Part shown: positions 19,617-37,064 of the stretch, piece after piece | Position numbering within the stretch: position 1 is the stretch's first letter | Layout: each line of letters begins with the position of its first letter | Origin: Bacteroidota bacterium | GTDB taxonomy: Bacteria; Bacteroidota; Bacteroidia; Bacteroidales; F082 | Assembly (NCBI GenBank): GCA_018830105.1 | Contig: JAHJTC010000004.1 | Span: 434,001 to 498,000, forward strand | Direction of reading: 5' to 3' | DNA length: 64,000 bases | Notes under the pieces: model-generated | What the model saw: only the letters and a program-made list of their open reading frames with translations | Told to the model about the DNA's origin: nothing | The model's database searches: none | Position numbers and translations under genes: made by a program

Positions 19617-22600
19617 CTATTTATGCTTGTGCATTTCGCCTGGTGTTTCGTTGAATAGCTCACGATAAGAACGGTAAAAATAGGCGCGATTATTAAAGCC
19701 CGTCATAAACACGATATCACTAATGCTATGATTACCTTCTTTGATAAAATCTCTGGCTTTTATTAACCTGAAATTCTTAATCAACCCATGAGGTGTGAGC
19801 CCTGAAAGCGCTTTGATTTTTCTGTAAAGCTGTGCTTTACTTAAAGCAAGTACATTAGCTAAAACATCAGCGTTCAGATGATCATCCTGGTAATGATTTG
19901 CAATAAAATCATGCGCCTTTTCCAACAATTTACGGTCTCGATCCGACAGATGCTGCTCTTCAATTTCGGCTTGCTTATCAAAATTCTTTCTAATACCCTC
20001 CATTAAAATCTCGCGGGTTTCGAGCAATTTTGCTATGCGCAAATACAGGTGCCGCGGATGAAAGGGCTTAGCTATATAGCCATCAGCACCTGTCTCAAGG
20101 CCCTCAATCACATGCTCATTAGCAGATTTTGCTGTAAGTAGGATTACAGGAATGTGACTCGTAATCAAATCTTCTTTAATGGTTTGAGCTAGTTCGAGAC
20201 CGCTCATATTAGGCATCATTACATCGCTTACTACCAAATCTATTCTTTTCTTGTTTAAAATATCTAATGCTTGTTTTCCATCGCTTGCAGTCTCCACATC
20301 ATAATGCTCTGCCATAAGTTTCTTGATTAGCATCAAGAGTTGAACATCATCTTCAACAATCAGAATTCTGTACTTGGATTTTGATTCTATTGATGAATCA
20401 GATTGTGTTTCGTTTTCAAAAACAAGGCTTTGCTGAATCAAAAATTCCTCACTGATGCTTTCACGCAAATGCTTGAGCAATTCGCTACTTCGTGGATTTA
20501 GTTCAATATTTTTCGGCTTGGCGTTTGATAAAATGGGCAGAAATACCTTAAACAAAGATCCCAAATTTGGTTCACTTTCCACCTCAATTCTTCCTTTATG
20601 AATCTCAACCAGACTTTTAGTATAGGAAAGACCGATACCGGTACTTTTATGCTCTGCCTGATTTCTCTCGGGAATTGGGTTTTGATAAAAATAGCGATCA
20701 AATATTAGTGGTAAGTCTTTACTTTTAATGCCAATCCCATTATCTCTTACGATTATAAGTAGTTCATTCTTAAAACTTTGTATCCCAACATTGATCATTC
20801 CACCAGGTGGTGTGAATTTTACTGCATTGCTGAGTAGGTTTAGCAAAATTCGTTCCAGCTTTTCCGGGTCAAATGGCACATGCTTTTCCTGTTCGTCGGG
20901 TTCAAAAATCAAGTCGATCTCCTTTTCGCTGGCATAAACACGAAAAATTTCTACAATGTCACTTACAAAACCAATCAGATCCAATTGCTGAAGTTTTAGT
21001 GCTTCGCGTCCGGCATCAAGTTTTTGAAAAGCAAGTAGTTCGTCAATCATTTTTTGCAACCGAAGGGCATTTTGGTAAATGCTTTTAAACAGGCTTTGCT
21101 CAACAGGAAACTGTTTTGCTTTGTCCATCAGGTTAGCAGCAGAAGCAAAAATAAGCGTTAAAGGGGTTCGGAATTCGTGGGCTAAATTGGTAAAAAACTC
21201 AAATTTATGCCGGTTAAGCTCTTGCTCCTTCTTTCGGTTTAAGTCATCCAAAGCTTCGCGATGCTTTCTTTTGATGCGATTTGATTGATAACGATAAAAT
21301 AAAAATACAACCAACAGGAAAAACAAGAAGTAAAAAATATAGGCCAATGTAGTTCTCCAAAATGGAGGTGTAATTACAATTTCAAGGGTTCGGATTTTAT
21401 CCGACCAAATACCATCTTCATTAGTAGCACGAAGTTGTAAATTATACGTTCCGGGAGGCACATTGGTGAAATTTGCAAAGCGCTGTTCTCCAACATCTAC
21501 CCATTTTTCGTTGAACTGCGCAAGACGATAACTGAAAAAAATTTTGGCAGGGTTGTCAAAGTTAATCGTAGTAAAAGAGATACTGAAGAAATTCTGATTG
21601 TGTTTAAGATAAATTTTATCTGTGGCATCAATATCCTTTTCCAAAATCTGCGCCTCATCCCCTGGTTCAACAGCTTTATTAAACACACTAAATTCTGTTA
21701 AAATAATTTCAGGTTGGATAGTTGAAAGCGGGATTTGAGCCGGATAAAACCAATCAACGCCGTTGGTGCCCCCAAAAAAAAGTTTGTCAGCATTCCGGCT
21801 TCTGAATGCTGCCCCATCCGTAAATTCACTATTCAGTAAACCATCACCACTGTTGTAATTGACAAAACGGTTTTGATCCCTCAGCAATCGGCTCAGGCCA
21901 TTATTTGTACTCACCCAAACATTCCCCTGTTTATCTTCAAGCATGGAATGAATGGTATGATTTGGAAGTCCGTCTGCCGTTGTATAGTAACTAAATTCAG
22001 GCTTTTGACCATTGTAGTTTAACAGGTTCAAGCCACCGCTTGTTCCAATCCAAAGTTCATTATTTGTTCCTTTAAGCAAACTAAGCACATCTGAGTTATT
22101 CAGACCATTGCTTTGATCATCTGCCTGACCAAAAAACTGTATCTCGCCCGTAAGGCTGTTGTAACGATGCAAGCCCGACATGCGGGTTCCAATCCAAAGT
22201 ACATTAGGTTGCTCTTCAACAATCGAGAACACCACATTTCCCCTGAGGTCATTCGCTCCCCCTCTGCCTTCCAGCTGCGTAAAAGTCTTTACATCGAAGA
22301 AACTTTCTTTGTAATCGGGTGTGATACTGACTACACCATAACCACTTGTGCCCAACCAAATTGTGTTGAAGATATCAATACATATATCGTAAACCGATCC
22401 AAATTGCGGTAAACCAGAAGATTCAAAATCATCCGGAAAATGCCTGAATTCGCCTGTTGCAAGATTTAAAATATCAATACCAGATCCATCGGTTCCTATC
22501 CACAAATAACCAAAATCATCTTCGGCAAGCGACAGAACAGCGTCATTTGATAAGCCGTTTGAAGTGTTAAAAATGATGGTTGGCCCTCCATCGGAAGGGA

Positions 22601-23783
22601 TTTTATTCAGGCCGTTCCCTCTGGTGCCAATCCATAAATTTCCGGATTTATCTTCATAAATGGTTCTTACAATCTTATGACTTAACTTCTGCTCTTGCAG
22701 TGGTCCTTTTTCGATACCCTGAAATGCTAATGGGGAAGTGTTGATTTGAAAAACACCTTCGCCGTCGGTGCCAATCCAGATATGTTTGCCCGATTTGAAA
22801 ACTGACCAGATTTTTACTTTTTTTTCTTCAAGATCAGGAAGCTGATTGAGCAGGCATTTCACCTCGAAATCGTCAAAATTTAAAACTAAAATATTGCCTT
22901 TATCTGTGCCCAGAATAATGTTTTCTAGACTATCGTCCGCAAATAGTGCTGTAACAGGTGACGCAATCACTTCGTTTCCAATCAATTTATAATCGCCTGA
23001 TTTTAGATCCACAATCCACAGACCACCCTGTGAATCAGGAAAAGCAGCATAGGGTTTTTCATGAATGCTGAAAAACCAGTTTAAATCTACTTTAAAGGCA
23101 GAAGATGATTGCATTTGCGGACTTATCTTCCGCAGAAAATTTCCCAGCTCATCAATCACATAAATTTCATTGCTTTGGTGCATCAAATAAATTTGAGAAC
23201 CAAACTTAAACACACCTGTTAATTGCAACAGCACTTCAGGATTGACTTCCTTAATCGTAACAAGATCAAATTCAAACGATTCTGCGTTAAATTTGTACAG
23301 CCCAACACCATATTGTACAAGCCAAACCTGGCCTTGATTATCAGCAAAAGCACGCAGTCCGTTTTCGCGATTCAGTCGTAAGGTATCTTCACCGAACCAG
23401 CTTGTGAATGTTTTAAAATCATAATCATACAAATTTATTCCCCGCTCTGTAACTATCCAAAGCCCAAGTTCCTGTTCAAAAATATCCCAGATGATATTAT
23501 TGCTGAGCTTGTTTTGCGACATCAAATCCGGGTAATGCCTAACAATAGTATGTCCGTCAAACTGGTTAAGTCCATCCCAGCTTCCAAACCACAAATAGCC
23601 TTTTCGATCTTTATAAATAGCACTCACAGCACTATTCGACAGACCATCTTCATTGCTTATCTGCCTGAGTTGCCATTTACTATTGGGTATTCCCTCTTGT
23701 GCAAAAGATTGAAAACCTAACCATAAATATAAGAGCACAACAACGAACACAAGCATTTTTCTCAAGCAACTACTCCAATCCAT
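19617..23783 (-). CDS. Hybrid two-component system regulator (HTCS) of the polysaccharide locus
   Basis: A 1388-residue one-protein sensor-regulator. An N-terminal signal/anchor is followed by a periplasmic two-component-propeller region (about 35-720, repeated 'GLWIGTxGxGL' blades) and a Y_Y_Y domain (about 730-805). A membrane helix lies at about 813-833. HisKA carries H869 in HEFRTPL, then comes HATPase_c with N, G1 (DNGIG) and G2 boxes. A receiver carries the phospho-acceptor D1187 in SDVMMPNMSG. An AraC-type double helix-turn-helix (about 1286-1388) is the output. Such proteins bind an oligosaccharide in the periplasm and switch on the adjacent PUL. It is divergent from the secreted PUL gene, with 171 bp between them, the expected place for autoregulation and target control. 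An alternative start at 23756 gives a cleaner signal sequence. Confidence 0.92.
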   Translation of the reverse strand: MDWSSCLRKMLVFVVVLLYLWLGFQSFAQEGIPNSKWQLRQISNEDGLSNSAVSAIYKDRKGYLWFGSWDGLNQFDGHTIVRHYPDLMSQNKLSNNIIWDIFEQELGLWIVTERGINLYDYDFKTFTSWFGEDTLRLNRENGLRAFADNQGQVWLVQYGVGLYKFNAESFEFDLVTIKEVNPEVLLQLTGVFKFGSQIYLMHQSNEIYVIDELGNFLRKISPQMQSSSAFKVDLNWFFSIHEKPYAAFPDSQGGLWIVDLKSGDYKLIGNEVIASPVTALFADDSLENIILGTDKGNILVLNFDDFEVKCLLNQLPDLEEKKVKIWSVFKSGKHIWIGTDGEGVFQINTSPLAFQGIEKGPLQEQKLSHKIVRTIYEDKSGNLWIGTRGNGLNKIPSDGGPTIIFNTSNGLSNDAVLSLAEDDFGYLWIGTDGSGIDILNLATGEFRHFPDDFESSGLPQFGSVYDICIDIFNTIWLGTSGYGVVSITPDYKESFFDVKTFTQLEGRGGANDLRGNVVFSIVEEQPNVLWIGTRMSGLHRYNSLTGEIQFFGQADDQSNGLNNSDVLSLLKGTNNELWIGTSGGLNLLNYNGQKPEFSYYTTADGLPNHTIHSMLEDKQGNVWVSTNNGLSRLLRDQNRFVNYNSGDGLLNSEFTDGAAFRSRNADKLFFGGTNGVDWFYPAQIPLSTIQPEIILTEFSVFNKAVEPGDEAQILEKDIDATDKIYLKHNQNFFSISFTTINFDNPAKIFFSYRLAQFNEKWVDVGEQRFANFTNVPPGTYNLQLRATNEDGIWSDKIRTLEIVITPPFWRTTLAYIFYFLFFLLVVFLFYRYQSNRIKRKHREALDDLNRKKEQELNRHKFEFFTNLAHEFRTPLTLIFASAANLMDKAKQFPVEQSLFKSIYQNALRLQKMIDELLAFQKLDAGREALKLQQLDLIGFVSDIVEIFRVYASEKEIDLIFEPDEQEKHVPFDPEKLERILLNLLSNAVKFTPPGGMINVGIQSFKNELLIIVRDNGIGIKSKDLPLIFDRYFYQNPIPERNQAEHKSTGIGLSYTKSLVEIHKGRIEVESEPNLGSLFKVFLPILSNAKPKNIELNPRSSELLKHLRESISEEFLIQQSLVFENETQSDSSIESKSKYRILIVEDDVQLLMLIKKLMAEHYDVETASDGKQALDILNKKRIDLVVSDVMMPNMSGLELAQTIKEDLITSHIPVILLTAKSANEHVIEGLETGADGYIAKPFHPRHLYLRIAKLLETREILMEGIRKNFDKQAEIEEQHLSDRDRKLLEKAHDFIANHYQDDHLNADVLANVLALSKAQLYRKIKALSGLTPHGLIKNFRLIKARDFIKEGNHSISDIVFMTGFNNRAYFYRSYRELFNETPGEMHKHK

Positions 23784-23954: not shown

Positions 23955-26900
23955 ATGAAAAATTCCTATTTAAAATCGTTGATATTCGTCCTGTTGATTC
24001 TTTTGATTATACCAATAAAAGCACAACAAATTGCGATACCGCGAATTGATCAAATGCCTGATTTCCCGCAGCCTTATGAAATGCGCGACTGGAAAACCAT
24101 TGCACATAAATATGATTCACTCGTTTTTGACCAAAACTTGCAGGGAGAGTTTTTACCCTTAATTTTTTTTAGGGAGCAGGGCGTTAATTATCCTGCAACC
24201 GAAAGTTTTGGTTTGCATACAGCCATCGGAACTAACAGTCCGCTTTCAGGAGAAGCAATAAATGTGCTTCCGGCTTTGGTGGGCGCTTCACTGGCGGGCA
24301 TTGATAAAAGTAATCAGTTTGGCAAAAACTGGGCATTAATGGCTGCCGACTATTTCAACAAACGCCCTCAGGAAAATATTTACCTCAACCATCCTAATGC
24401 TTCATCGGGCAACGATTGGTGGTACGAAACCATGCCCAATATTTTTTACCTGCAATTGAGGGCGCTCTATCCGGATATAACTCGTTTTGACGAACAGCTC
24501 GAGCTTATGGCCAATCAATGGCTCAAAGCCGTTGAACATATGGGCGGCTCTGCTCAGCCCTGGCAGGTTCCGGAAATGAATTTCAGGGCCTGGAATATGA
24601 ATACCATGCAAGGCCTCAATCAGGGCGTGCCCGAACCCGAAGCCGCTGGCGCAATAGGATGGATACTCTATCAAACCTACAAAAGCACCGGAAAAGAAAA
24701 ATACCGCATTGGTGCAGAACAGGCTTTGGATTTTTTGAACCAGCTTAATCAAAACCCATCCTACGAATTACAACTTCCTTATGGTGTATATGCTGCTGCG
24801 CGCATCAATGCCGAACAAAACTACCCGCAATATGATGTAGAAAAAATGCTCAATTGGGTGTTCGATCGCGGTGCGCTCAGAGGCTGGGGAACAATAGTTG
24901 GCAACTGGGGCGGTTATGATGTTTCCGGGCTTATTGGCGAGGCCAATGATGCAGGAAACGATTATGCTTTTTTAATGAATGGATTTCAGCAGGCAGCTGC
25001 TTTAGTTCCGATGGTTCGTTACGACGATAGATTTGCAGCTGACATAGCAAAATGGGTGCTTAATTTGGCAAATGCTTCGAGATTGTTTTACAGACCCTAC
25101 TTACCCGAATCTTATCAGGATAACTTTGATTGGTCAGTAACTTATGACCAACATGCAGTAATTGGTTATGAAGCGCTTAAAGAAGTAAAGTACGAATTGA
25201 GTCCCTATGCCACCGGAGATGCCATTGATGGCGGCTGGGCGCAAACAAACCTCATGCTTTATGGCTCTTCACATGTTGGATATCTGGCCGGATTGATTGA
25301 AGAAACTAATGTGGAAGGAATTCTGAAACTTGATTTGTTAAAAACCGATTTTTATCAAGATCAAGCCTATCCCACTTTTCTGATTTACAACCCACATGAG
25401 CAGCAACATCAGATAGAGCTTCAGCTTGAATCCGGAAATTATTCAGTTTACGATCTCATCACCAATCAGCTTATCAGCAGCGCGCAACAAGGCACAACAT
25501 CGCTGCTGATTCCGGCTAAAACAGCCATAATGCCAGTGGTTTTCCCTTCTGAATATGAAGTAACGACAGCCGGTAACCAGACATTAGTCAATAATATTGT
25601 AATTGACTTTAACAATGGAAATCCCATTCCAAATTATCCGCCCCGCATCAGAGCGCTTGCAGCTCCCGACACAATTGCGCTTCAGCAGAGTATAAGCATC
25701 TATTGCACAGCTGAAAACCCCGAAAATGAAAGCCTGAGCTATGAATGGAAAATTAATGATTCCATGGTGGATGGCAACGAAATTTTAATGTTCAGTACTG
25801 ATACTACCGGCAATTTCCAAATTCAGTGTAAAGTAACAGATGCATTTGGCTTGGCCGATAGCAGCACTGTAAACATTACCGCTGTGACGAAAATCCCCTA
25901 TGCTCCAGAAATTACAGGACTAATTGCCTCTCCCCGTAAAACAGAACCGCTTGCATTTATTCAACTTAGGGTTAATGCCATTGATCAAAACAACGATCCG
26001 CTTTCCTATTTATGGACTGATTTTGAAGGAAATAGCATCGGCAATACGGAATGGATAAATTATCAAGTACCTTCAATTGTAAGCAACTATTGGATATTTT
26101 GTGAAGTTACTGATTCAGATCAGCTTAGCACACGCGACAGCATACAAATTATGGTGAGGCAAATTGAATCATATCCGGAAGCAGCCCTCATTGCAAGCTA
26201 CTGGCTCGATGGAAACGCAAACGATCAAACTGTGAATCAACTTGATGGAACTGCATCCAACAGCGTCAGCTGGACTGAAAATGAGACAGGACATGCTGAA
26301 CAAGCGGCTCACTTTGACGGAAATAGTGCGCGTATCACACTGCCAGCCAGCAGTCTTTTTAATTTTGATGAATACCTGAGCGTTACTTTTAAGTTTAAAT
26401 TAGATGGTAGTGCAGAAAACGAACAGTTTTTAATCTCTCATGGCAGCTGGCAAAACCGCTATAAAATTTCCAGATCTGCAAATAGAATTCGTTTCACCAT
26501 AAACACTACTGATGGAATTGCCGACCTCGACAGTGAAACAATACCTGAAAAAGATCAATGGTATCATCTGGCTGCCATATATAATGGTGAAGATATGGAA
26601 ATTTGGCTTGATGGTGCTTTGGATGCCTTTAAAGCCCATACCGGATTGCTGAACCCGACCACTTATCAAGTTGCAATGGGTCAGCAGTATAGCGAAGCGC
26701 CAGGCTTTAATTTTGAAGGCTCGTTGGACAATGTAAGCATTTACAACTATCCGCTTAATCCACAACAAGTTGAAGCGAGCAGATTTGTTTCACTAACTGA
26801 AATTTCCGAAACTTCTGAAGTTCGGGTTTTCCCAAATCCCAATCGGGGTGATTTTATAATGTTCTCTTCCGAAAAAGAAATCGACCAACCTGTTTCTATC

Positions 26901-27068
26901 CTGCTTACCAATATTATGGGACAACAATTCAAGGTGCAATCGTTTGAAAAAATCAACCCAAATCTTTTCAGAATCGAATTATCAGAAGCACTTTCAGCCG
27001 GAATTTATCAGCTCATCATGCACACAACGAAAAAAACCTACAGAGCAAGCTTAATTTGTACACCATAA
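23955..27068 (+). CDS. T9SS-secreted putative glycan-active protein of unassigned family
   Basis: A 1037-residue exported protein. A signal peptide (1-24, ending KAQ) is followed by a domain of about 530 residues (about 25-555) homologous to the lipoprotein encoded at 29633-31360. Next are two Ig/PKD-like domains (about 560-740), a LamG/concanavalin-like domain (about 747-946) and a T9SS sorting domain (about 955-1037, beginning VFPNPNRGDF). The N-terminal domain is helix-rich with aromatic and acidic patches (DWWYETMPN, YDVSGLIGE, LPYGVYAAARINAEQ, YGSSHVGY). This suggests an (alpha/alpha)-barrel glycoside hydrolase or lyase fold, but I recognise no named CAZy family. Position as first gene of the PUL plus an added LamG domain supports extracellular attack on a polysaccharide (inference). 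Confidence 0.7.
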   Translation: MKNSYLKSLIFVLLILLIIPIKAQQIAIPRIDQMPDFPQPYEMRDWKTIAHKYDSLVFDQNLQGEFLPLIFFREQGVNYPATESFGLHTAIGTNSPLSGEAINVLPALVGASLAGIDKSNQFGKNWALMAADYFNKRPQENIYLNHPNASSGNDWWYETMPNIFYLQLRALYPDITRFDEQLELMANQWLKAVEHMGGSAQPWQVPEMNFRAWNMNTMQGLNQGVPEPEAAGAIGWILYQTYKSTGKEKYRIGAEQALDFLNQLNQNPSYELQLPYGVYAAARINAEQNYPQYDVEKMLNWVFDRGALRGWGTIVGNWGGYDVSGLIGEANDAGNDYAFLMNGFQQAAALVPMVRYDDRFAADIAKWVLNLANASRLFYRPYLPESYQDNFDWSVTYDQHAVIGYEALKEVKYELSPYATGDAIDGGWAQTNLMLYGSSHVGYLAGLIEETNVEGILKLDLLKTDFYQDQAYPTFLIYNPHEQQHQIELQLESGNYSVYDLITNQLISSAQQGTTSLLIPAKTAIMPVVFPSEYEVTTAGNQTLVNNIVIDFNNGNPIPNYPPRIRALAAPDTIALQQSISIYCTAENPENESLSYEWKINDSMVDGNEILMFSTDTTGNFQIQCKVTDAFGLADSSTVNITAVTKIPYAPEITGLIASPRKTEPLAFIQLRVNAIDQNNDPLSYLWTDFEGNSIGNTEWINYQVPSIVSNYWIFCEVTDSDQLSTRDSIQIMVRQIESYPEAALIASYWLDGNANDQTVNQLDGTASNSVSWTENETGHAEQAAHFDGNSARITLPASSLFNFDEYLSVTFKFKLDGSAENEQFLISHGSWQNRYKISRSANRIRFTINTTDGIADLDSETIPEKDQWYHLAAIYNGEDMEIWLDGALDAFKAHTGLLNPTTYQVAMGQQYSEAPGFNFEGSLDNVSIYNYPLNPQQVEASRFVSLTEISETSEVRVFPNPNRGDFIMFSSEKEIDQPVSILLTNIMGQQFKVQSFEKINPNLFRIELSEALSAGIYQLIMHTTKKTYRASLICTP

Positions 27069-27236
27069 TCTCAAATTTGTACACTTATGCTTTTGAATGC
27101 CCACTTTAGAACAGTTTTTTTGAAAATTGAGAATATACTACACGAATATGAAAACCCTGTAAACACAGTTTGCTGTTTCTGGGTGTACTTTTACGCAACC
27201 GTTTGCAAAAAGTATTGCTGAAACAAAAAACTTATA

Positions 27237-28283
27237 ATGGATATTGCAAAAAGATTTTCAGAAAACCCACTGCTCAAACCAACAGACATTAAACCCAGCT
27301 TGCCCGGAATGGAGATTCTGTGCTTGCTTAATCCTGGCGTTTTTACATTTAGTAATAAAACATGGTTGTTGTGTAGGGTCGCCGAACGTCCACCACAAAA
27401 AGAAAACAGCATTCAGGTTCCTGTTTTTGATGAGCAGGGAAAAATTGAAATTCTTGAATTCCTTAATGACGATCCTGAGCTTGATGCTACTGATCCAAGA
27501 GTAATCTTATATAAAGGTGTAAATTATCTCACCTCACTCTCTCACCTACGTTTGCTCTGTAGCGAGGATGGAAAGCATTTCTATGAACCAGAAGGTTATC
27601 AGCCTGTTAATGGAAAAGGAGCGCTGGAGTCATTTGGCATTGAAGATTGCAGGGTTGCAAAAATTGATGACGCTTTTCATCTTACCTATACCCAGGTTTC
27701 AAGCATTGCTGTTGGAGTTGGTTACATGAAAACTACAGATTGGAAGGCCTTCGAACGTAAAGGGATGATTTTTCCACCACACAATAAGGATTGTGCATTT
27801 TTTGAAGAACAGATTGACAATAAATATTATGCGCTGCATCGTCCCAGCAGTCCCGAACTTGGCGGTAATTATATCTGGATCGCTGAATCGGAAGATCTAA
27901 AATACTGGGGAAATCACCGTTGTGTTGCTGTTACACGTCCCGGAAAATGGGATAGCGTGCGTATCGGAGCCGGTGCAGCACCAATTAAAACTGAAAAAGG
28001 CTGGCTTGAAATCTATCATGGTGCCAACGAAGAAAATCGTTATTGTCTCGGAGCTTTATTGCTCGACTTAAACGACCCTTCTAAAGTAATTGCCCGCAGC
28101 GAGGAACCTATAATGGAACCCCTTGCTGAATACGAAAGAACAGGTTTTTTTGGTAATGTGATATTCACTAACGGACATGTAGTGAATGGCGACACGATTA
28201 CCATTTACTATGGTGCCAGCGACGAAGTTATCTGTGGAGCTGAGCTTTCAATCGCTGAAATACTTCAATCACTAAAACTGTAA
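27237..28283 (+). CDS. GH130-family beta-mannoside phosphorylase/hydrolase
   Basis: A 348-residue cytoplasmic protein without signal peptide, with the five-bladed beta-propeller pattern of GH130. Diagnostic elements are LNPGVF near the start, GIEDCRV with the catalytic acid D137, the basic/aromatic LHRPSSP, RIGAGAAPI, and EIYHGAN. GH130 enzymes cleave beta-mannosides, mostly by phosphorolysis to alpha-mannose-1-phosphate; a few are hydrolases. The MEILCLLNPGV start and overall length are closest to the beta-1,2-oligomannan/mannobiose phosphorylase branch as I recall it, but subfamily assignment needs a tree. It starts the run of closely spaced genes that continues into the MFS transporter 13 bp downstream, so transported oligosaccharide is its likely substrate. 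Confidence 0.85.
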   Translation: MDIAKRFSENPLLKPTDIKPSLPGMEILCLLNPGVFTFSNKTWLLCRVAERPPQKENSIQVPVFDEQGKIEILEFLNDDPELDATDPRVILYKGVNYLTSLSHLRLLCSEDGKHFYEPEGYQPVNGKGALESFGIEDCRVAKIDDAFHLTYTQVSSIAVGVGYMKTTDWKAFERKGMIFPPHNKDCAFFEEQIDNKYYALHRPSSPELGGNYIWIAESEDLKYWGNHRCVAVTRPGKWDSVRIGAGAAPIKTEKGWLEIYHGANEENRYCLGALLLDLNDPSKVIARSEEPIMEPLAEYERTGFFGNVIFTNGHVVNGDTITIYYGASDEVICGAELSIAEILQSLKL

Positions 28284-28296
28284 ACCTAAGCTGCAA

Positions 28297-29625
28297 ATGA
28301 AAAACAAGCTCCTGATCGAATACAACTTTTTCCTTTCAATGCCCCGTCCAATGCGGCTGTTGTTGGTTACAAACATGATTTACGCTTTTGTGCTGCCAAT
28401 TATCGACATCTTTGTTGGGGCTTATATCATGCGCAGTTCCGACAATCCATCACTGGTAGCCATCTATCAGCTATCTGTTTATACTGGCATTCCTTTAACT
28501 TTTTTGATTAACGGATACCTCTTAAACCGCATTAAAATTGCACATTTATATAGTTTTGGTATGCTCCTGAGCGGATTATCGATGATCTTCATGATGTCAC
28601 TTGATCAAATCGACATGATTGGGGTGGCTGTTGCAGGCTTGATCATGGGCGGTTCATTTGGCTTTTTCTGGGCAAACCGCGATTTTTTGGCGCTTGACAC
28701 TACAAACGATCAAAACCGCAATTATTATTATGGTGTTGAGACCTTCTTTTATACCATCACAGCAATTATTGTTCCTGTTACGGTAGGCTGGTTTTTAGTC
28801 AGGTCAACAGCAATGGGCTGGTTTGCTGGCAATATTGTGGGGGCTTACAAAGTGATCACTTTTGCGGTAATCCTGCTAACGATCATTTCCAGCTATGTGA
28901 TTCACCTGGAGAAATTTAGAAATCCACGCGAGAAAAAGTTTGTCCACTTCCGTTTTGATAAACTCTGGAATAAAATGTTGGTTTTGGCCGGATTGAAAGG
29001 TCTTGTGCAAGGATATATTGTAATAGCACCTGCCATTCTGATTTTAAGGCTTGTTGGCGATGAAGGTTCCCTGGGAACAATTCAAAGCATTGGCGGAATT
29101 ATAACAGCAATATTGCTTTATTTGCTAGGACGGCTTACAAAACCACAACACCGTATCTATGTATTCTCTGCAGGTTTGGTTTTGTTTTTCGTTGGATCGC
29201 TTTTCAACCTGATCATGTTTTCGGCAACAGGTGTAGTTGTTTTTGTAATTTGCCTGATCATGTTCAGACCATTACACGACATCGCTTATTTTCCGATACA
29301 ATTGCGTGTGATCGACCTGCTTTCGATTAAAGAAAAAAGAAGCGAATTCGCTTATATCTTCAACCATGAATTTGGTTTGTATGTTGGGCGTTTTATCGGG
29401 CTGGTATTATTCATCTCGCTAATGTATTATGTATCAGAAAGCTTCGCATTAAAATATTCTCTGCTAATTGTAGCAGCCATACAGATGTTGTCGATTCCGG
29501 TGGCTAAAAACATTATCAAATCCACACAAAAATCGATTGATGCATTTGATGGCGATATTGATGAGCTAAAATCGCTGCAACAAATTCCGGATGTGAATGA
29601 AATTCCTGTTAAAGAAAAGATATAA
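28297..29625 (+). CDS. MFS transporter of the PUL (oligosaccharide uptake candidate)
   Basis: A 442-residue inner-membrane protein with about 12 transmembrane helices and the MFS layout (two six-helix halves joined near residue 200 by a charged loop, REKKFVHF). The middle of the first half has GGSFGFFWANRDFLAL, a conserved feature of a subgroup of Bacteroidota sugar-related MFS proteins. It lies 13 bp after the GH130 gene and 7 bp before the lipoprotein gene, so it is in one operon. Context suggests it imports the oligosaccharide that GH130 then cleaves. An export role cannot be excluded from sequence. Confidence 0.8.
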   Translation: MKNKLLIEYNFFLSMPRPMRLLLVTNMIYAFVLPIIDIFVGAYIMRSSDNPSLVAIYQLSVYTGIPLTFLINGYLLNRIKIAHLYSFGMLLSGLSMIFMMSLDQIDMIGVAVAGLIMGGSFGFFWANRDFLALDTTNDQNRNYYYGVETFFYTITAIIVPVTVGWFLVRSTAMGWFAGNIVGAYKVITFAVILLTIISSYVIHLEKFRNPREKKFVHFRFDKLWNKMLVLAGLKGLVQGYIVIAPAILILRLVGDEGSLGTIQSIGGIITAILLYLLGRLTKPQHRIYVFSAGLVLFFVGSLFNLIMFSATGVVVFVICLIMFRPLHDIAYFPIQLRVIDLLSIKEKRSEFAYIFNHEFGLYVGRFIGLVLFISLMYYVSESFALKYSLLIVAAIQMLSIPVAKNIIKSTQKSIDAFDGDIDELKSLQQIPDVNEIPVKEKI

Positions 29626-29632
29626 ATTAATT

Positions 29633-31360
29633 ATGAAACAATACACTTATTGGTTTGTGAGCTTTTGTTTTATTACTGTGCTTCTTTTGGCAAGTGCTTG
29701 CTCTAAAATCGAAGAAGTTCCTCAGCAAAGTATCGCACGCATAGAAGCCATGCCTGATATGCCCGAACCATACAAAATGATCGATTGGAAAGAAATCAGC
29801 ACCTCTTTCGATCAGTACATTTTCGATTTTAACCAAACCGGTGACTACCGACCCTTTATCTGGATCGACACCAACAGGAGAAATTTCGATCAGCCTACTT
29901 TTGGTATTTACACTGCAATAGGCGATGTAAGACAGGGTGCCCAAAATAACAATGGCGAGTTTCATGAAGCTATCGGCGGTCTTGGTGCCTTAATGAGTGC
30001 CGGATTACTTGGTATCGATAAGACCAATCAATCGGGATACAATTTCGTGAAAATGGCACAAAACTATTTTAACAGCGAAAATGGATGGAATATCATTATG
30101 AATAACACCAATCCCGAAGTTGCCTCACTGGGCGGCGGTTACGGAAGAGACTGGTGGTATGATATTTATCCCAATGTGCTGTATTATGCCGTTTCGGATT
30201 TATTTCCTGAAGTTGAGCGTGCTGACAGCCTGCAAAAAATTATCGCTGATCAAGTTTTAAAAGCTGATCAGGTACTTAATGGTGATTACCACTTCTCTTA
30301 CTTTGACTATTCCAGCATGGAAGGCAAACAGAATCATATTCCTTTTCAGGAAGATGCGGCAGCAGCACATGCGTGGATTTTATTAGCTGCCTACGAAAAA
30401 TTTGGAGATGAAGCTTACTTAACCGGCGCAATGAGTGCTATGGACGCACTTCAATCGCAAACCGAAAGCAGATTTTATGAAGTGCTGCTTCCTTTTGGAG
30501 TTTACACAGCGGCACGTTTAAATGCCGAACAGGGCACTTCCTATGACGTAAGTAAAATACTTGAATGGAGTTTTGAGGGCACAACGTCAGAAAGCGGAAG
30601 GCTTGGATGGGGCGTTATCTTAGATAAATGGGGCGAGTATGATGTTTCCGGCCTGGTTGGTAGCTGGCATCACGATGGAGGTTTTGCTTTTGCGATGAAT
30701 ACCTTTGATATGGCCTGGCCGCTTGTTCCAATGGTACGTTATGCACCGGAATATGCCAATATGGTTGGAAAATGGATGCTTAATGCGGCTAATGCGGCTC
30801 GCTTGTACTATCCACACGAAATACCAGACAGCAACCAATGGCTGCCCGAAAAGAAAGCGATCACTAGAAATGTAATTGCTTATGAAGGCCTTAAGAAAAC
30901 CACACACATTCCTAAGGAGGGATTGGAAAACACTTCTCCGGTGGCTTTGGGAGACGGTCCATTATGGGTTGAAGGCCAACCCGACGAATCCATGTTTGGT
31001 GTTTACGGTTCTGCACATGCCGGAATTTTTGGCGCGATCATCGAAAGAACTAATGTAGAAGGCATTTTAAAACTTGACTGCCTTGCAACAGATTTTTACA
31101 ACAACGACTCCTACCCTACTTATCTAATCTATAATCCTCACAACGAAGGCAAAATGATTAAATATGCTGCTAAATCGCCTGCTCCTGTCGATCTGTTCGA
31201 TGTAGTAACCAAAAAGGTAATCCTGAAAAATGTCATCAGCGAAACTGAAATATCAATCCCGGCAAAAGCCTCAAAACTTATTGTTGAAATTCCAGCAGGA
31301 CTCGATCTCAAGAAAGTGAATGGTAAGGTAATGGCCGGTAATATTGTTATAGCTTATTAA
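29633..31360 (+). CDS. Lipoprotein paralogue of the PUL's unassigned secreted enzyme candidate
   Basis: A 575-residue lipoprotein. The start is taken at ATG 29633, 7 bp after the MFS stop; it gives a proper signal peptide with lipobox LASAC and a mature Cys at residue 23. The rest aligns end to end with residues 28-555 of the protein at 23955. Shared blocks include 'MPDxPxPYxMxDWK', 'GIDKxNQxGxNxxxMAxxYF', 'DWWYxxxPNxxY', 'LPxGVYxAARxNAEQ', 'YDVSGLxG', and 'TNVEGILKLDxLxTDFYxxxxYPTxLIYNPH'. It lacks the Ig, LamG and sorting domains. Strong conservation of acidic and aromatic residues suggests an enzyme. A surface or periplasmic partner acting on shorter products than its secreted paralogue is a plausible inference. 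Confidence 0.75.
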   Translation: MKQYTYWFVSFCFITVLLLASACSKIEEVPQQSIARIEAMPDMPEPYKMIDWKEISTSFDQYIFDFNQTGDYRPFIWIDTNRRNFDQPTFGIYTAIGDVRQGAQNNNGEFHEAIGGLGALMSAGLLGIDKTNQSGYNFVKMAQNYFNSENGWNIIMNNTNPEVASLGGGYGRDWWYDIYPNVLYYAVSDLFPEVERADSLQKIIADQVLKADQVLNGDYHFSYFDYSSMEGKQNHIPFQEDAAAAHAWILLAAYEKFGDEAYLTGAMSAMDALQSQTESRFYEVLLPFGVYTAARLNAEQGTSYDVSKILEWSFEGTTSESGRLGWGVILDKWGEYDVSGLVGSWHHDGGFAFAMNTFDMAWPLVPMVRYAPEYANMVGKWMLNAANAARLYYPHEIPDSNQWLPEKKAITRNVIAYEGLKKTTHIPKEGLENTSPVALGDGPLWVEGQPDESMFGVYGSAHAGIFGAIIERTNVEGILKLDCLATDFYNNDSYPTYLIYNPHNEGKMIKYAAKSPAPVDLFDVVTKKVILKNVISETEISIPAKASKLIVEIPAGLDLKKVNGKVMAGNIVIAY

Positions 31361-31380: not shown

Positions 31381-34300
31381 ATGCGTTTATTATACAAATA
31401 CTTATTAATTATCGCGGTGAGCTGGATGTTCGGCGGATTTATTTCCACCAGCATGGCGCAATCCCGAACTGTTACGGGAAATATCACTGACACAAATAAT
31501 GAAAGCCTTCCTGGTGTAAACATCATCATCAAAGGCACTACCATTGGCACCACTTCAGATTTTGACGGGAATTATGCGCTTGAGATCCCTTCAGATGAGG
31601 TAAATCCCGTTTTGGTTTTCAGGTATATTGGCTTTTTAACTCAGGAAGTAGAGCTGGGTAATCAGAACGTTGTAAATGTGGTGTTGCCCGCTGATGTTCA
31701 ATTGCTTGATGAGCTTGTTGTAGTGGGTTATGAGACCCGAAGAAAAGCTGATCTTACAGGAGCTGTAACAAGCATCAAGCTCGATGAAATTAGTTCGCTC
31801 CCTGTAAGCGGTGCAGATCAGGCGCTTCAGGGAAGAGCTGCGGGAATTAATGTCACTTCAAATACAGGCATGCCGGGTGAAGGCGTTCGCATCAGGATTC
31901 GTGGTGTTGGTTCAATAAATAGCAGTAACGACCCTTTGTACATCGTTGATGGAATCCCAACTTCAAACGCATTGAATGTATTAAACCCCAACGATATAGC
32001 CTCGATAAATATTCTAAAGGATGCGGCATCAACAGCCATTTATGGTTCGCGTGCCAATAATGGCGTTGTGCTAATCACCACGAAAAAAGGTGAAAAAGGA
32101 AAACCAAGAGTTGAGTTTAATTCCATGTTTGGACTTCAACAGCATGGCAAGCTGACCGAAATGGCAAACAAAGATCAGTTTGTTGAAATCTACAATGAGG
32201 CTGCAGCCAATGATAACGCATTTATCGAAAACCCACGTCTTCAGCGGAAGTACATCGAACCGGATTTTGCCGCTACACTTCCTGATATCAACCACCTGGA
32301 AGCCATTTTCCGCGATGGCGTGATTCAAAATCAGAATCTTTCCGTCAGCGGAGGCGACGACAAGCTAACCTATATGATTTCTGCGAATTACTTCAGTCAG
32401 GAAGGGATTATCATCGGAAGTGATTACGACAGAAAATCAGGAAAAGTAAGCCTCACAAGCAAGGTTTCAGATGCTATTACAATTGGAACTAACATCAACC
32501 TGATGCAAAGTGATAACGACATCATCGGTAGCAGTGGCGATGGTTATGGTGGTAATGGCGGCGGTATCGTTCGCTATGCATTTTTCCGCACGCCCGGCAT
32601 TCCGATTCATGATGCTGAAGGTAATTTTGTAGATCTGCCCGAGCGACAAGACTTATTGGGCGATGGCTATAATCCGGTTGGATTGGCAACCTATGCCGAA
32701 AACAACATCAAGCAAAACAGATTATTCGGAGATGTTTACCTCAAGGCTCAAATTTTACCAGAAATAGTGTTCACTTCCACTTTTGGAGGGGATTTTATTT
32801 CGATGCAGCACAGGCGCTTCGACAGAAACTGGGGCACAAATAATCGCATCAACAATCCCAACCGACTAACCCTTGAAGATGGCCTAAACCAAACCTGGAC
32901 ATGGAGTAATGTACTGTCATATAACACTACTTTCAACGAGATTCATAATTTCTCAGCCCTTCTCGGCTCCGAAGCCATTAAAGGAAATGGTTATTTACAT
33001 ACCGGCACCCAGCAGGATTTTCCAGATCAATCGCCCATTTTGGTTTTTCTGGGGAATGGATTGGGCAATACACAGGTAAATGAAAATCGCTGGGGATATT
33101 CTTTGCTCTCTGTTTTTGGGAAAGCAAATTATACCCTGAAGGACAAGTATTTATTCTCAGCCACTTTAAGACGTGATGGCTCATCGCGTTTTAGTGAAGA
33201 AAACAAATGGGGTACCTTTTATTCTGTCTCAGCGGGATGGCGCCTTGAAAAGGAAGCCTTTATGAGTCGTTTTGAAAACATGAACCTTTTTAAACTTCGT
33301 TTAGGCTACGGCGCTATCGGTAATCAGGAAATAGGAAATTATGCCTATTCAGATCAAATCGGATACAATTTTAGCTATCCCTTTAACGGGACGCTTTTCA
33401 ATGGATATGCCATCACTGTTTTGGGCAATCAAAACCTGCAATGGGAAACCAGTACCCAAATCAATGCCGGAATCGATATGGGATGGCTGCAGGACAAAAT
33501 CACTGTAACCCTCGATTTTTATCATAAAATCAATGAAAATATGCTGGTAAAAGAACCGATACCACCTTCTGCCGGCTATGCCGAGCCGGCCTGGGTGAAT
33601 AAAGGTAAAATCTTAAACCAGGGTGTTGATCTGGAAATGATTTATCGCGCCAGTGTTGGCAAAGTGGATCTTTCGATAGCAGCCAACGCCAGCTATCTTC
33701 ATAATGAAGTGCTCGAACTTCCTGCACCCATCCTGGGAGGAAGAATTGACAATGGCATCTATGCTACCAAAACAGAAGAAGGACATCCCGTTGGCTCATT
33801 CTACCTTTACGAAATGGAAGGCATTTTTCAGGACGAACTTGAAATATTTACAAGTGCATATCAGGGCGTAAATGTTCGTCCGGGAGATGTGAAATTCATT
33901 GATCAAAATGGTGACGGACTAATTGATGAGAACGATCGCGTTCATGTAGGAAGTGCCATCCCTAAAGTAACTGCAGGCTTGAATATCAATGCTGTGTACA
34001 AACAATTTGATGCAAGTTTGTTCTTTTATGGTGCCACCGGTCACAAGATCTATTATCAGGTTGCCACAGATATCGAAGGTTTCTACAGGTCGTTTAACGT
34101 AACCAAGAGATATTACGATGAACACTGGACTGGCCCGGGAACAAGCAATACCCAGCCCAGAGCCTCCTGGTCATCAAAAGCAAATAATACCAGACCTTCC
34201 ACACGTTTTCTCGAAGACGGCTCATTCATTCGACTGAAAAACCTTCAGATAGGCTACACCATTCCCAAAGCCACAACGAAAAGTATTGGTATCGAACGCA

Positions 34301-34476
34301 TAAGAGTTTATGCATCAGCATATAACCTACTTACCTTAACCAAATATCCCGGCCTCGACCCTGAAATGACTACCAGTAATAATTCAGCCTCAGAAGGCGA
34401 TGCCGCTACGGGAATTGACTGGGGAACTTATCCGGTTGCCCGTTCTTACAATATTGGTGTTCAAGTTAACTTTTAA
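31381..34476 (+). CDS. SusC-like TonB-dependent outer-membrane transporter
   Basis: A 1031-residue outer-membrane protein with a signal peptide (about 1-26, ending MAQ), an N-terminal carboxypeptidase-regulatory-like domain (RTVTGNITD...GVNIIIKGT), a TonB-box region (LDELVVVGY), a plug with IRIRGVGSINSSNDPLYIVDGIP, and a C-terminal 22-strand-type barrel ending in an aromatic residue (GVQVNF). It imports glycan fragments across the outer membrane with energy from TonB. It begins 20 bp after the lipoprotein gene and is followed 11 bp later by its SusD partner. Length and motifs are normal for the family. Confidence 0.95.
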   Translation: MRLLYKYLLIIAVSWMFGGFISTSMAQSRTVTGNITDTNNESLPGVNIIIKGTTIGTTSDFDGNYALEIPSDEVNPVLVFRYIGFLTQEVELGNQNVVNVVLPADVQLLDELVVVGYETRRKADLTGAVTSIKLDEISSLPVSGADQALQGRAAGINVTSNTGMPGEGVRIRIRGVGSINSSNDPLYIVDGIPTSNALNVLNPNDIASINILKDAASTAIYGSRANNGVVLITTKKGEKGKPRVEFNSMFGLQQHGKLTEMANKDQFVEIYNEAAANDNAFIENPRLQRKYIEPDFAATLPDINHLEAIFRDGVIQNQNLSVSGGDDKLTYMISANYFSQEGIIIGSDYDRKSGKVSLTSKVSDAITIGTNINLMQSDNDIIGSSGDGYGGNGGGIVRYAFFRTPGIPIHDAEGNFVDLPERQDLLGDGYNPVGLATYAENNIKQNRLFGDVYLKAQILPEIVFTSTFGGDFISMQHRRFDRNWGTNNRINNPNRLTLEDGLNQTWTWSNVLSYNTTFNEIHNFSALLGSEAIKGNGYLHTGTQQDFPDQSPILVFLGNGLGNTQVNENRWGYSLLSVFGKANYTLKDKYLFSATLRRDGSSRFSEENKWGTFYSVSAGWRLEKEAFMSRFENMNLFKLRLGYGAIGNQEIGNYAYSDQIGYNFSYPFNGTLFNGYAITVLGNQNLQWETSTQINAGIDMGWLQDKITVTLDFYHKINENMLVKEPIPPSAGYAEPAWVNKGKILNQGVDLEMIYRASVGKVDLSIAANASYLHNEVLELPAPILGGRIDNGIYATKTEEGHPVGSFYLYEMEGIFQDELEIFTSAYQGVNVRPGDVKFIDQNGDGLIDENDRVHVGSAIPKVTAGLNINAVYKQFDASLFFYGATGHKIYYQVATDIEGFYRSFNVTKRYYDEHWTGPGTSNTQPRASWSSKANNTRPSTRFLEDGSFIRLKNLQIGYTIPKATTKSIGIERIRVYASAYNLLTLTKYPGLDPEMTTSNNSASEGDAATGIDWGTYPVARSYNIGVQVNF

Positions 34477-34487
34477 AATCAGGAAGC

Positions 34488-35966
34488 ATGAAAAAAATAT
34501 TGATATCAGCAATTATAATCCTCAGCCTCGGAAGCTGCTCCAAATTTCTTGACGAAGAAATGCAAGGCATCTATACCAGTCAAACCTTTTACAAAACCGA
34601 CGACCATGCCGAACTTGCCCTCACGGCAGCTTATCAACCCATGGCATTTAGCAGCATCAACAACTCACTTTGGGTATTTGGTGATGTGGCTTCTGATGAT
34701 GCCATCAAAGGCGGAAATCCGGGTGATCAGAGTGAAATAGAATTTATCGAGCAGTTTACTTATACCCGCGACAATGGCTTTTTACTCAATATATGGAAGC
34801 GTTATTATGAAGGAATTTCCAGATCAAATGATGTAATTCATCGCCTGGGCGACGGTATTAGTGAGGATGTAAGAAATCGCGTGCTGGCCGAAGCAAAATT
34901 TTTGCGGGCCTATTATTACTTTAATTTGGTAAATATTTTTGGAGAAATTCCACTTAAGCTTCAGCCTGCCTATAATACCGATGAACTGCATATTGGGGTT
35001 TCATCAGTGGATGCTATTTATCAGCAAATAGTTGACGACCTTACTGAGGCTGCTACTCAAATTCCTGAATCAAATGCCATTCAATCAGGCAGGGCCACAA
35101 AAGCCGCCGCATACGGTTTATTAGCCAAAGTTGAATTGTTTAGGGAGAATTATGAGGCCTGCCTAACCGCTATCGGCTCGCTTGAAACCAATGGAAGTTT
35201 TGCGCTTGAAAATATTTACAGCAATAATTTTAAATGGCTTACACAGCAAAATCAGGAAATTGTTTTCGCCGTACAACATCTCAGTGGTCAGGATCCTTTT
35301 GCGGGTAATGTTCTAAATCAATGGTTTGCCCCACAACACGAAAATGGTTACTTCTTCAATGCGCCGGTTCAGGCGTTTGTTGATGCTTTCGAAAAAACGC
35401 CTGAAGATGTATATGACCCGCGCCTGGATTATACCCTTGCCAGGGAAGGCTCAAAATGGATCAACGGAGAAGATTACGATCCTTCGTGGTCGCCCACTGG
35501 ATACACCCTTCGCAAACATCAGCAACCCCTGGAAGAAATCCCTGTTGGCACCAAAGGTGACAGTGATTTGCATTACGCCTATATGCGTTATGCCGAAGTG
35601 CTGCTTATGAAAGCAGAAGCGCTTAATGAGCTCAACCGTACATCTGAAGCATTAGACCCACTAAATACAGTGAGAAAAAGAGCACGTGAAAGCTATCTTT
35701 ATGATGAAAATCTTGATGGATTTGGTGCCATTCCCGAAGGGCTCTTGCCCGATATAATCACTGCAAATCAAAATGAATTGCGTGAGCTTATCCGAAACGA
35801 ACGCAGGGTGGAGCTGGGCTTCGAGTTTCATCGCTTTTTTGATCTGATGCGTTACGGAAAAACTTACGCTGAGTCAAAACTCTCCGGTACTTCATTCAAT
35901 TATGACGAACATCGCTATTTTCAGATACCACAAAACGAACTTGATATCAACCTTAATATTAATTAA
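34488..35966 (+). CDS. SusD-like/RagB surface glycan-binding lipoprotein
   Basis: A 492-residue lipoprotein with lipobox LGSC and Cys17, then the SusD N-terminal pattern KFLDEEMQGIYTSQTFYKT. It has the tetratricopeptide-like core element RVLAEAKFLRAYYYFNLVN and a C-terminal block with RYAEVLLMKAEALNEL and ELIRNERRVELGFEFHRFFDLMRYGK, both hallmarks of SusD/RagB proteins. It forms the lid of the SusC transporter and delivers oligosaccharide into it. Adjacent to SusC with 11 bp between them; same operon. Confidence 0.95.
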   Translation: MKKILISAIIILSLGSCSKFLDEEMQGIYTSQTFYKTDDHAELALTAAYQPMAFSSINNSLWVFGDVASDDAIKGGNPGDQSEIEFIEQFTYTRDNGFLLNIWKRYYEGISRSNDVIHRLGDGISEDVRNRVLAEAKFLRAYYYFNLVNIFGEIPLKLQPAYNTDELHIGVSSVDAIYQQIVDDLTEAATQIPESNAIQSGRATKAAAYGLLAKVELFRENYEACLTAIGSLETNGSFALENIYSNNFKWLTQQNQEIVFAVQHLSGQDPFAGNVLNQWFAPQHENGYFFNAPVQAFVDAFEKTPEDVYDPRLDYTLAREGSKWINGEDYDPSWSPTGYTLRKHQQPLEEIPVGTKGDSDLHYAYMRYAEVLLMKAEALNELNRTSEALDPLNTVRKRARESYLYDENLDGFGAIPEGLLPDIITANQNELRELIRNERRVELGFEFHRFFDLMRYGKTYAESKLSGTSFNYDEHRYFQIPQNELDINLNIN

Positions 35967-35996: not shown

Positions 35997-37064
35997 ATGA
36001 AAAAGTTTAAACCACTTTCTATGATGATGATCATGGTGATTACGCTTCTGGCTGTCACCTTTACAGGCTGTAAAAAAGATGATGACCCTGAAGAAATCAA
36101 AGTAAACAAAACCGAGCTTCAGGCTAAAATTACAGCTGCGGAAAACATGCTTAATGCTGCCGTTGAAGGCACTGCAGATGGCCAGTATCAATATGGTTCA
36201 AAAGCTGTTTTTGAAGGAAAAATCAACCTTGCAAAAGCCGTAAATGACAATGCTGTTTCCACTCAGGTTCAGGTTGATGCTGCTGTTACTGCGCTGGACG
36301 TTGCTATGGCAGAGTTTGAGGCTAAAAAAGTAACGCCTATTGCTCCTGAAGCCCTTGTTGGTCATTGGACTTTCGATGAAGGTGAAGGAACAGTAGCCAA
36401 TGATTTTTCCGGGAAAAATTTCAACGGAACGCTCAAAGCAGGCCATGAGTTCTTTGGCGCCGGATTCCCTGAGTGGACAACCGACCGCTATGGAAATGCT
36501 GCAAAAGCCCTCTATTTTAACGAAGGTGCTAACGTTGAAATCCCTTACAATGCCCAGCTGAATCCTCAGGAAATGACCATTTCATTATGGATGAAACCTG
36601 ATGTACTGGAAACTCCATGGGCTAATAACTATATGGTTTCCTTGAAACGCTGGGATGGATTCAAACTTCAGTTGCAGGATGCACCAAAAGTTTTCTTCAC
36701 CGTGAAAGCTGTAAATGAAGGCGAAGAAGTATGGTACGACCGTGATAATGAGTCACCAACAATCAATTTAGGTGAATGGTATCATGTTACTGTTACCTTT
36801 AAAAGCGGAGAAATGGCCTTCTACCTCGATGGTACGCTCGTAAAACTTTGGGACAATACGCCCGGTGCTGCAATCGCACTTACTGAACCTATGAATCTAA
36901 TCTTTGGACAGGATCTTCCAACAGATGTTTACACTGGTCCCGATGGCGATTTCAACGTTGAATGGGGTGGATATTTCAAAGGCATCCTTGACGAAGTGCG
37001 CATTTTCAATGCTGCTTTGACATCAGCACAGGTTGAGTCGATCTTCAACCTCGAGAAACCTTAA
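35997..37064 (+). CDS. LamG-domain lipoprotein, candidate surface glycan-binding protein
   Basis: A 355-residue lipoprotein (lipobox FTGC, Cys23) encoded directly after SusD, where SusE/SusF-type surface glycan-binding proteins usually sit. Residues about 33-110 form a helical FIVAR/albumin-binding-like module (ELQAKITAAENMLNAA). Residues about 118-352 form a LamG/concanavalin-like beta sandwich (LVGHWTFDEGEGTVANDFSGKNFNG... KGILDEVRIFNAAL). LamG domains bind or, in related folds, cleave carbohydrate; no catalytic residues are evident. It probably presents the PUL substrate at the surface on a helical stalk (inference). Confidence 0.8.
   Translation: MKKFKPLSMMMIMVITLLAVTFTGCKKDDDPEEIKVNKTELQAKITAAENMLNAAVEGTADGQYQYGSKAVFEGKINLAKAVNDNAVSTQVQVDAAVTALDVAMAEFEAKKVTPIAPEALVGHWTFDEGEGTVANDFSGKNFNGTLKAGHEFFGAGFPEWTTDRYGNAAKALYFNEGANVEIPYNAQLNPQEMTISLWMKPDVLETPWANNYMVSLKRWDGFKLQLQDAPKVFFTVKAVNEGEEVWYDRDNESPTINLGEWYHVTVTFKSGEMAFYLDGTLVKLWDNTPGAAIALTEPMNLIFGQDLPTDVYTGPDGDFNVEWGGYFKGILDEVRIFNAALTSAQVESIFNLEKP

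Follow-up and report, generated by a model that had tools for sequence, protein, structure and literature searches.

Beta-1,2-linked mannans occur in the cell walls of Candida and in certain O-antigens, and Leishmania uses such a polymer for storage (PMC4264767); for the beta-1,2-mannoside linkage the accessible texts describe cytoplasmic phosphorylases (PMC8950772) and one exo-hydrolase (PMC4599007). According to the excerpts of PMC8950772 at hand, the GH130 family covers beta-1,4, beta-1,3 and beta-1,2 linkages; Lin0857 is a beta-1,2-mannobiose phosphorylase, and Uhgb_MS is a mixed-linkage mannoside synthase yielding beta-1,2-mannobiose and, on alpha-1,2-mannotriose, a Man-beta-1,2 product. 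In the yeast-mannan polysaccharide utilization locus (PUL) of B. thetaiotaomicron, a SusCD-type alpha-mannan locus, the GH130 enzyme BT3780 is an exported exo-hydrolase acting on Man-beta-1,2-Man (available sections of PMC4599007). Searches of the open-access PMC literature, subscription papers being outside that scope, brought up no paper on an endo-beta-1,2-mannanase; the '2-mannanase' of PMC12394665 refers, in the part of that paper available, to the alpha-1,2 linkage. Here we analyze a window, that is, a whole stretch of 64,000 nucleotides from a Bacteroidota bacterium (Bacteroidales, F082; GenBank assembly GCA_018830105.1, contig JAHJTC010000004.1, positions 434,001 to 498,000 of the forward strand), in which a secreted protein (hereafter SECR) and a lipoprotein (LIPO) share a domain of about 530 residues and flank a GH130 gene.

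This locus resembles the Lin0857, Teth514_1788/1789 and Uhgb_MS systems in having the same kind of cytoplasmic beta-1,2-mannoside GH130 next door, although the portions available of the reports on those systems describe phosphorylases and no enzyme with the shared domain, and the Thermoanaerobacter cluster, as far as its description is accessible, has a GH5 in place of such an enzyme. The locus likewise resembles that of BT3780 in its SusCD-type setting; there the exported enzyme is a GH130, whereas in the window the GH130 lacks a signal peptide, keeps a His that hydrolases reportedly lack (to judge from a mapping by motif), and the exported enzyme would be the shared domain. We consider it fairly probable that catalysis resides in this domain, that it defines a glycoside hydrolase family unnamed in the libraries searched, and that its targets are beta-1,2-linked mannans or oligomannans met outside the cytoplasm; a cutting step is proposed because of the fold, the conserved acids, the export and the lack of another candidate. 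The features on which this proposal depends are the following.

23955..27068, + strand: SECR, 1037 aa, with the N-terminal shared domain, a PKD/Ig-like region, LamG and a tail of the type IX secretion system (T9SS)
24030..25610, + strand: shared domain of SECR, about 530 residues (approximately residues 26-552; BLASTP, alignment A2)
26316..26771, + strand: LamG (Laminin_G_3) of SECR, residues 788-939 (PF13385, E 2.5e-20)
26826..27041, + strand: T9SS type A sorting tail of SECR, residues 958-1029 (TIGR04183/Pfam)
27237..28283, + strand: GH130 lacking a signal peptide, of the beta-1,2-mannobiose phosphorylase type (PF04041, E 6.1e-44)
29633..31360, + strand: LIPO, 575 aa, the lipoprotein that carries the second copy of the shared domain, with lipobox Cys23
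29774..31102, + strand: predicted (alpha/alpha)6 barrel of LIPO, approximately residues 48-490 (AlphaFold2 model)
31103..31357, + strand: predicted C-terminal beta-sandwich of LIPO, approximately residues 491-575 (AlphaFold2 model)

The open reading frame (ORF) of SECR is present in the ORF list of the window, and for LIPO the ORF tool set the start at 29597, giving 587 aa. In BLASTP both proteins align along 587 columns with 37% identity (356 bits, E 2e-115), a likeness over about 530 residues that is far beyond chance, and the blocks DWWYxxxPN, YDVSGLxG, LPxGVYxAAR and TNVEGILKLD were located in both, as expected from the initial annotation, which had described two paralogous proteins carrying these blocks. 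Its architecture was also recovered: the LamG of SECR is above the cut-off, the T9SS tail passes with TIGR04183 (24.3 bits, cut-off 23) and is just short in Pfam (25.8 bits, cut-off 27), the PKD/Ig-like stretches score below the Pfam cut-offs, and the N-terminus of LIPO has a lipobox-like ASA followed by C23. The absence of a recognised family held up as well, since neither LIPO nor the first 550 residues of SECR had a match in Pfam and NCBIfam at E<=1, both domains returned nothing from PDB sequences at E<=10, and a profile of 97 relatives reached a best E of only 0.14 against PDB; by sequence, the shared domain belongs to no family in these three libraries.

A single scan of a genome collection yielded 146 relatives, of which the best 80 were kept, representing 78 loci (L003-L080); the set thus leans toward close relatives. 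SECR orthologues are present in 69 of these loci and LIPO orthologues in 26, with both together in 18. Alignment A2 holds 97 domain sequences, three fragments among 98 relatives (two from L021, one from L054) having been omitted and the L060 copy being absent because no single open frame was called. In a maximum-likelihood tree of the 97 domains one branch with support 100 divides 27 LIPO from 70 SECR rows, and on this tree the family consists of two orthologous groups. SECR was found in Bacteroidota, Ignavibacteriota, Calditrichota, KSB1, Neomarinimicrobiota, Stahlbacteria and Gemmatimonadota, and all LIPO rows are labelled Bacteroidota excepting L013 (Algicola, filed under Pseudomonadota in the tree). 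The domain occurs in 19 of 395 sampled genomes of the phylum (~5%), counting the window's own.

The family uses two export routes. LamG and the TIGR04183 tail each matched at E<=0.001 in all 59 full-length SECR proteins scanned, a scan which omitted for the tail the 11 of 70 SECR proteins outside 1000-1180 aa; with its predicted C-terminal sorting domain SECR has the mark of T9SS cargo. Moreover, a PorV-like protein recurs near SECR in 16 loci (PF19572, E 3e-12 in L043), which fits export by this system. A loose lipobox pattern was seen in 28 of 30 LIPO-cluster proteins, the match of L020 being doubtful, and the two failures both come from L021 (an N-truncated piece and a SECR fragment).

An AlphaFold2 run on the 97 sequences (model mdf7d35a0c9e3) gave LIPO a pLDDT (predicted local distance difference test) of 96.0 and a pTM (predicted template modelling score) of 0.93, with twelve main helices joined by alternating long and short connections and followed by a C-terminal beta-sandwich. 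In this model the domain is an (alpha/alpha)6 barrel plus a beta-sandwich, so that the barrel guessed beforehand was obtained. Foldseek placed GH127/GH146 beta-L-arabinofuranosidases on top (E 2e-8), with TM-scores of merely 0.28-0.40, and a second structural aligner ranked first 4mu9, the putative glycosyl hydrolase BT_3782 (Z 21.8, 3.6 A, 321 residues), followed by GH76 mannanases (Z 21.0-20.5) and then by GH88-type and other barrels. The nearest folds among the matches listed are all or mostly carbohydrate-active (GH127/146, GH76, GH88); GH144 and GH162 are absent among the 50 listed, no dedicated comparison having been made for GH144, GH162 or GH189. As the (alpha/alpha)6 fold is common to many carbohydrate-active enzymes, the fold alone names no activity.

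GH127/GH146 enzymes (e.g. 7exw) have, like the shared domain, a barrel and then a beta-domain, with an identity of only ~12%. GH127 enzymes employ a Cys nucleophile and a zinc bound by Cys and Glu; in contrast, no Cys column is conserved at >=95% over the 97 rows of A2. The GH127/GH146 profile PF07944 had no match at E<=1, hhalign against seven GH127 proteins gave a probability of 8% over 27 columns, and membership in these families was rejected, the likeness being one of fold alone.

The GH76 endo-alpha-1,6-mannanases (6u4z, 4v1s, 4c1s) share the barrel over 315-331 residues (Z 20.5-21.0) with only 9-11% identity, and resemble the locus in a mannan-related gene neighbourhood; D173 of LIPO precedes a presumed inner helix, like the Asp pair of GH76, which we take to lie before an inner helix. 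That pair (D133, D134) is invariant in 13 of 13 GH76 rows and absent from A2, where D173 is invariant and the preceding residue variable. The GH76 profile PF03663 had no match in LIPO or in the SECR domain at E<=1, and hhalign against the 13 GH76 proteins gave a probability of 1% (E 0.056), so membership in GH76 was rejected as well, the fold alone being alike. The missing pair and the negative profile comparison likewise count against a GH76-like hydrolase that would cut the alpha-bonds of a mixed mannan (yeast-type alpha-mannan with beta-1,2-mannose caps) and leave only the caps to GH130, an explanation we regard as unlikely even though the GH76 folds rank among the nearest, Uhgb_MS is able to extend alpha-1,2-mannobiose (accessible text of PMC8950772), and beta-1,2-mannose caps are documented on Candida alpha-mannan (available part of PMC4599007). 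A GH92 alpha-mannosidase was encountered in one scanned neighbour only (L017), GH92 not having been searched in every locus. Alpha-mannan clusters normally need several such enzymes.

Over the 97 sequences of A2, 26 columns are invariant, six of them acids (E112, D173, E283, E418, D441 and D487 in LIPO numbering), and many aromatics and amides are invariant too; D173, E283, E112, E418 and D441 are the best candidates for catalysis. This degree of conservation argues against a non-catalytic or differently catalytic module, be it a glycan-binding scaffold or an epimerase- or lyase-like barrel, as does the exported location. Epimerases and lyases also use (alpha/alpha)6 folds and appear among the fold matches, and L020 has the domain without a GH130 neighbour, yet we find such a module doubtful. 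The smallest relatives, L012 and L015, bear on the same question: they consist of the regulator, GH130, a major facilitator superfamily (MFS) transporter, lipoprotein, SusC, SusD, LamG lipoprotein and a second lipoprotein, and hold two LIPO genes and no SECR. From the regulator to the second LIPO, GH130 is the only enzyme called besides the LIPO genes, and no further enzyme carrying a signal for export was called, which leaves, in these two loci, no candidate but the shared domain for the extracellular step. The part of the initial annotation that saw in this domain a backbone-cleaving activity survives in this form, as an extracellular depolymerase.

For the linkage of the substrate we relied on the GH130 of the window, in which 245 of 346 residues (71%) are identical to Uhgb_MS (structure 9eqq, crystallised with a ligand whose name begins '1,2-beta-ma'), and whose second match is Lin0857 with 328.9 bits; scores against beta-1,2 enzymes range over 328.9-584.7 bits, versus <=143 for TM1225, RaMP2 and other beta-1,4 enzymes. 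Because of this 71% identity, beta-1,2-linked mannan seems the better substrate by homology, and it replaces the beta-mannan or alpha-glucan suggested initially. The other GH130 types, judged from one member each, have as best matches 1,2-beta-oligomannan or beta-1,2-mannobiose phosphorylases; one of these types, cluster c15 (17 loci, L067:15578-16876 being a member), is extended by a long stretch at its N-terminus and best matches the Teth514-type 1,2-beta-oligomannan phosphorylase. A Glu-Asp pair in 68 of 68 GH130s and a Lys in 66 of 68 are kept in all three GH130 types and appear to match, by motif and not by alignment with BT3780, the beta-1,2 signature given in the available text of PMC4599007; a His conserved in 68/68 would fit phosphorylases under the same kind of mapping. 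A beta-mannanase that cuts beta-1,4 or beta-1,3 bonds instead, and feeds phosphorylases that take those products, is improbable in view of these scores and of the signature residues, notwithstanding the range of linkages covered by the family and the GH2 neighbours of beta-mannosidase type in 20 of the 78 loci.

The genes for the shared domain are linked to GH130 genes. Some type of GH130 is present in 51/78 loci; among the 30 that reach 18 kb or more, 27 have one (the exceptions being L020, L035 and L050), and the 26 LIPO loci include the window-type GH130 in 22, MFS in 23 and SusC/D in 22. In the sample of 395 genomes, a less biased one, 149 genomes contain GH130, namely 19/19 with the domain versus 130/376 without it (Fisher P 4e-9, a value computed over related genomes, which are not independent, and with GH130 types unsorted). 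In 17 of the 19 genomes a GH130 lies <=11 kb from the domain, and in the other two (G246 and G458) it is on other contigs.

With a SusC-SusD pair, a regulator and a CAZyme, the window locus is a SusC/SusD-type PUL, and its remaining parts are listed below.

19617..23783, - strand: hybrid two-component sensor/regulator (Reg_prop, Y_Y_Y, HisKA, HATPase_c, Response_reg, HTH_18; Pfam)
28297..29625, + strand: MFS transporter (PF07690, E 5e-9)
31381..34476, + strand: SusC-like TonB-dependent receptor (PF07715, PF00593, PF13715)
34488..35966, + strand: SusD-like protein (PF07980, PF14322)
35997..37064, + strand: LamG lipoprotein in the SusE position (PF13385, E 4.9e-23)
37215..38834, + strand: GH13 with signal peptide (PF00128, E 8.8e-129)

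The window-type order runs regulator, SECR, GH130, MFS, LIPO, SusC, SusD and LamG lipoprotein; orthologues of the regulator were found in 17/78 loci, and the LamG lipoprotein, probably a surface glycan-binding protein, belongs to a cluster (cluster 7) seen in 24 loci including the window. Directly upstream of the regulator, at 11420-19528, the window encodes a protein of 2702 aa with three DUF5689 stretches and CHB_HEX_C_1 repeats.

Only the closest relatives, L004, L005, L007 and L008, retain the GH13 (4/78 loci, 3/30 long loci, several loci ending before its position). It was rejected as a core partner enzyme, and the GH130/GH13 pairing of the initial annotation was given up with it; in that lineage it may mark a glucosylated substrate. 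GH26 was considered as a hidden endo-mannanase and set aside: the window's genome has none, and in the 12 of 19 domain genomes that do have GH26 no copy shares a contig with the domain at a distance of 190 kb or less; GH5, GH113 and GH134 were not searched for in the genomes.

Neighbours of >=300 aa that fell in no cluster were scanned in Pfam for 80 of 132 proteins, with 120 families matched and the top 25 considered. SECR loci not of the window type have an ABC (ATP-binding cassette) transporter (Pfam of one member each), the beta-mannosidase-type GH2 and one or two other GH130 types, as well as two further exported proteins, c3 and c13. The first (L024:8662-9966 and orthologues, 28 loci) adjoins SECR and the GH130s in these ABC-type clusters and is an exported (alpha/alpha)6 protein without Pfam match, in whose case the fold prediction leads to 7tem (putative exported protein YPO2471, a title that names no function) with 43% identity; it may be another enzyme of this pathway that lacks an assignment. 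That c3 might be a distant copy of the shared domain was rejected (hhalign probability 0.7%, own fold relative 7tem). The second, c13 (L047:13133-15697 and orthologues, 19 loci), occurs in these clusters too, is exported, has ~855 aa and is related to GH94/amylo-glucosidase/MGH1-like barrels.

In the pathway that we propose, the T9SS would deliver SECR to the cell surface, where its LamG module would hold beta-1,2-mannan while the barrel hydrolyses the chains outside the cell, in endo mode and possibly by an inverting mechanism. Fragments would be imported by SusC/SusD, and LIPO, at the outer surface or in the periplasm, would trim them down to oligosaccharides of small size, mannobiose being the likeliest product. 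These short oligomannosides would then pass through the MFS porter into the cytoplasm, where GH130 would phosphorolyse them to mannose 1-phosphate and mannose. The steps from SusC through GH130 follow general knowledge of these families.

Several observations weigh against this proposal. Neither Pfam, NCBIfam and PDB nor the profile comparisons with GH76 and GH127 gave a sequence link to a characterised enzyme. In L020 (Pedobacter sp. PAMC26386, 7921-11707) a LIPO relative with 50% identity adjoins SusCD, the zinc peptidase Peptidase_Mx1 and DUF4302, while the only GH130 of that genome lies ~0.9 Mb from the domain; this context suggests that some relatives may do something else, a change of function being possible in L020. 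The long loci L035 and L050 have no GH130 in view; besides L020, LIPO stands without GH130 in L013, L017 and L021, loci which are short or cut. The exported proteins c3 and c13 are rival candidates for the depolymerase in the ABC-type clusters; Uhgb_MS is called a mixed-linkage synthase, and the linkage handled by GH130 need not equal the one cut outside. As to the position of the invariant residues, the whole presumed active face, as assigned by secondary structure, contains 17 of 24, which is not significant (P 0.11). In favour of the proposal, 10 of the 24 invariant barrel residues lie at most four positions from an N-terminus of the six helices presumed to be inner ones, against 2.6 expected (P 5e-5), while the control counts are 0 for the N-termini of outer helices and 2 for the C-termini of inner ones, this narrow test having been devised after the null result of the broad one; in the model such clustering is compatible with an active site, and is no proof of it.

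Taken together, the domain represents a real family, unnamed in the libraries searched, of probable extracellular beta-1,2-mannan hydrolases, a reading that combines sequence comparison with the predicted fold and the gene neighbours. We see about even chances that it founds a glycoside hydrolase family devoted to beta-1,2-mannan, in which a T9SS-secreted protein cuts the chains and a lipoprotein trims the oligomannans, and which is distributed across several phyla of the FCB (Fibrobacteres-Chlorobi-Bacteroidetes) group (Bacteroidota, Ignavibacteriota, Calditrichota, KSB1, Neomarinimicrobiota and others). The gap in chain cutting becomes directly testable with the two orthologous groups, the confident fold model, the six invariant acids and the substrate predicted here. 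If true, the enzymes would serve as a tool with which beta-1,2-mannan could be analysed or removed, genes left unnamed by those libraries in ~5% of the sampled genomes of the phylum would gain a function, and the pool of beta-1,2-mannan in sediments, groundwater and gut would be large enough to sustain dedicated catabolic loci.

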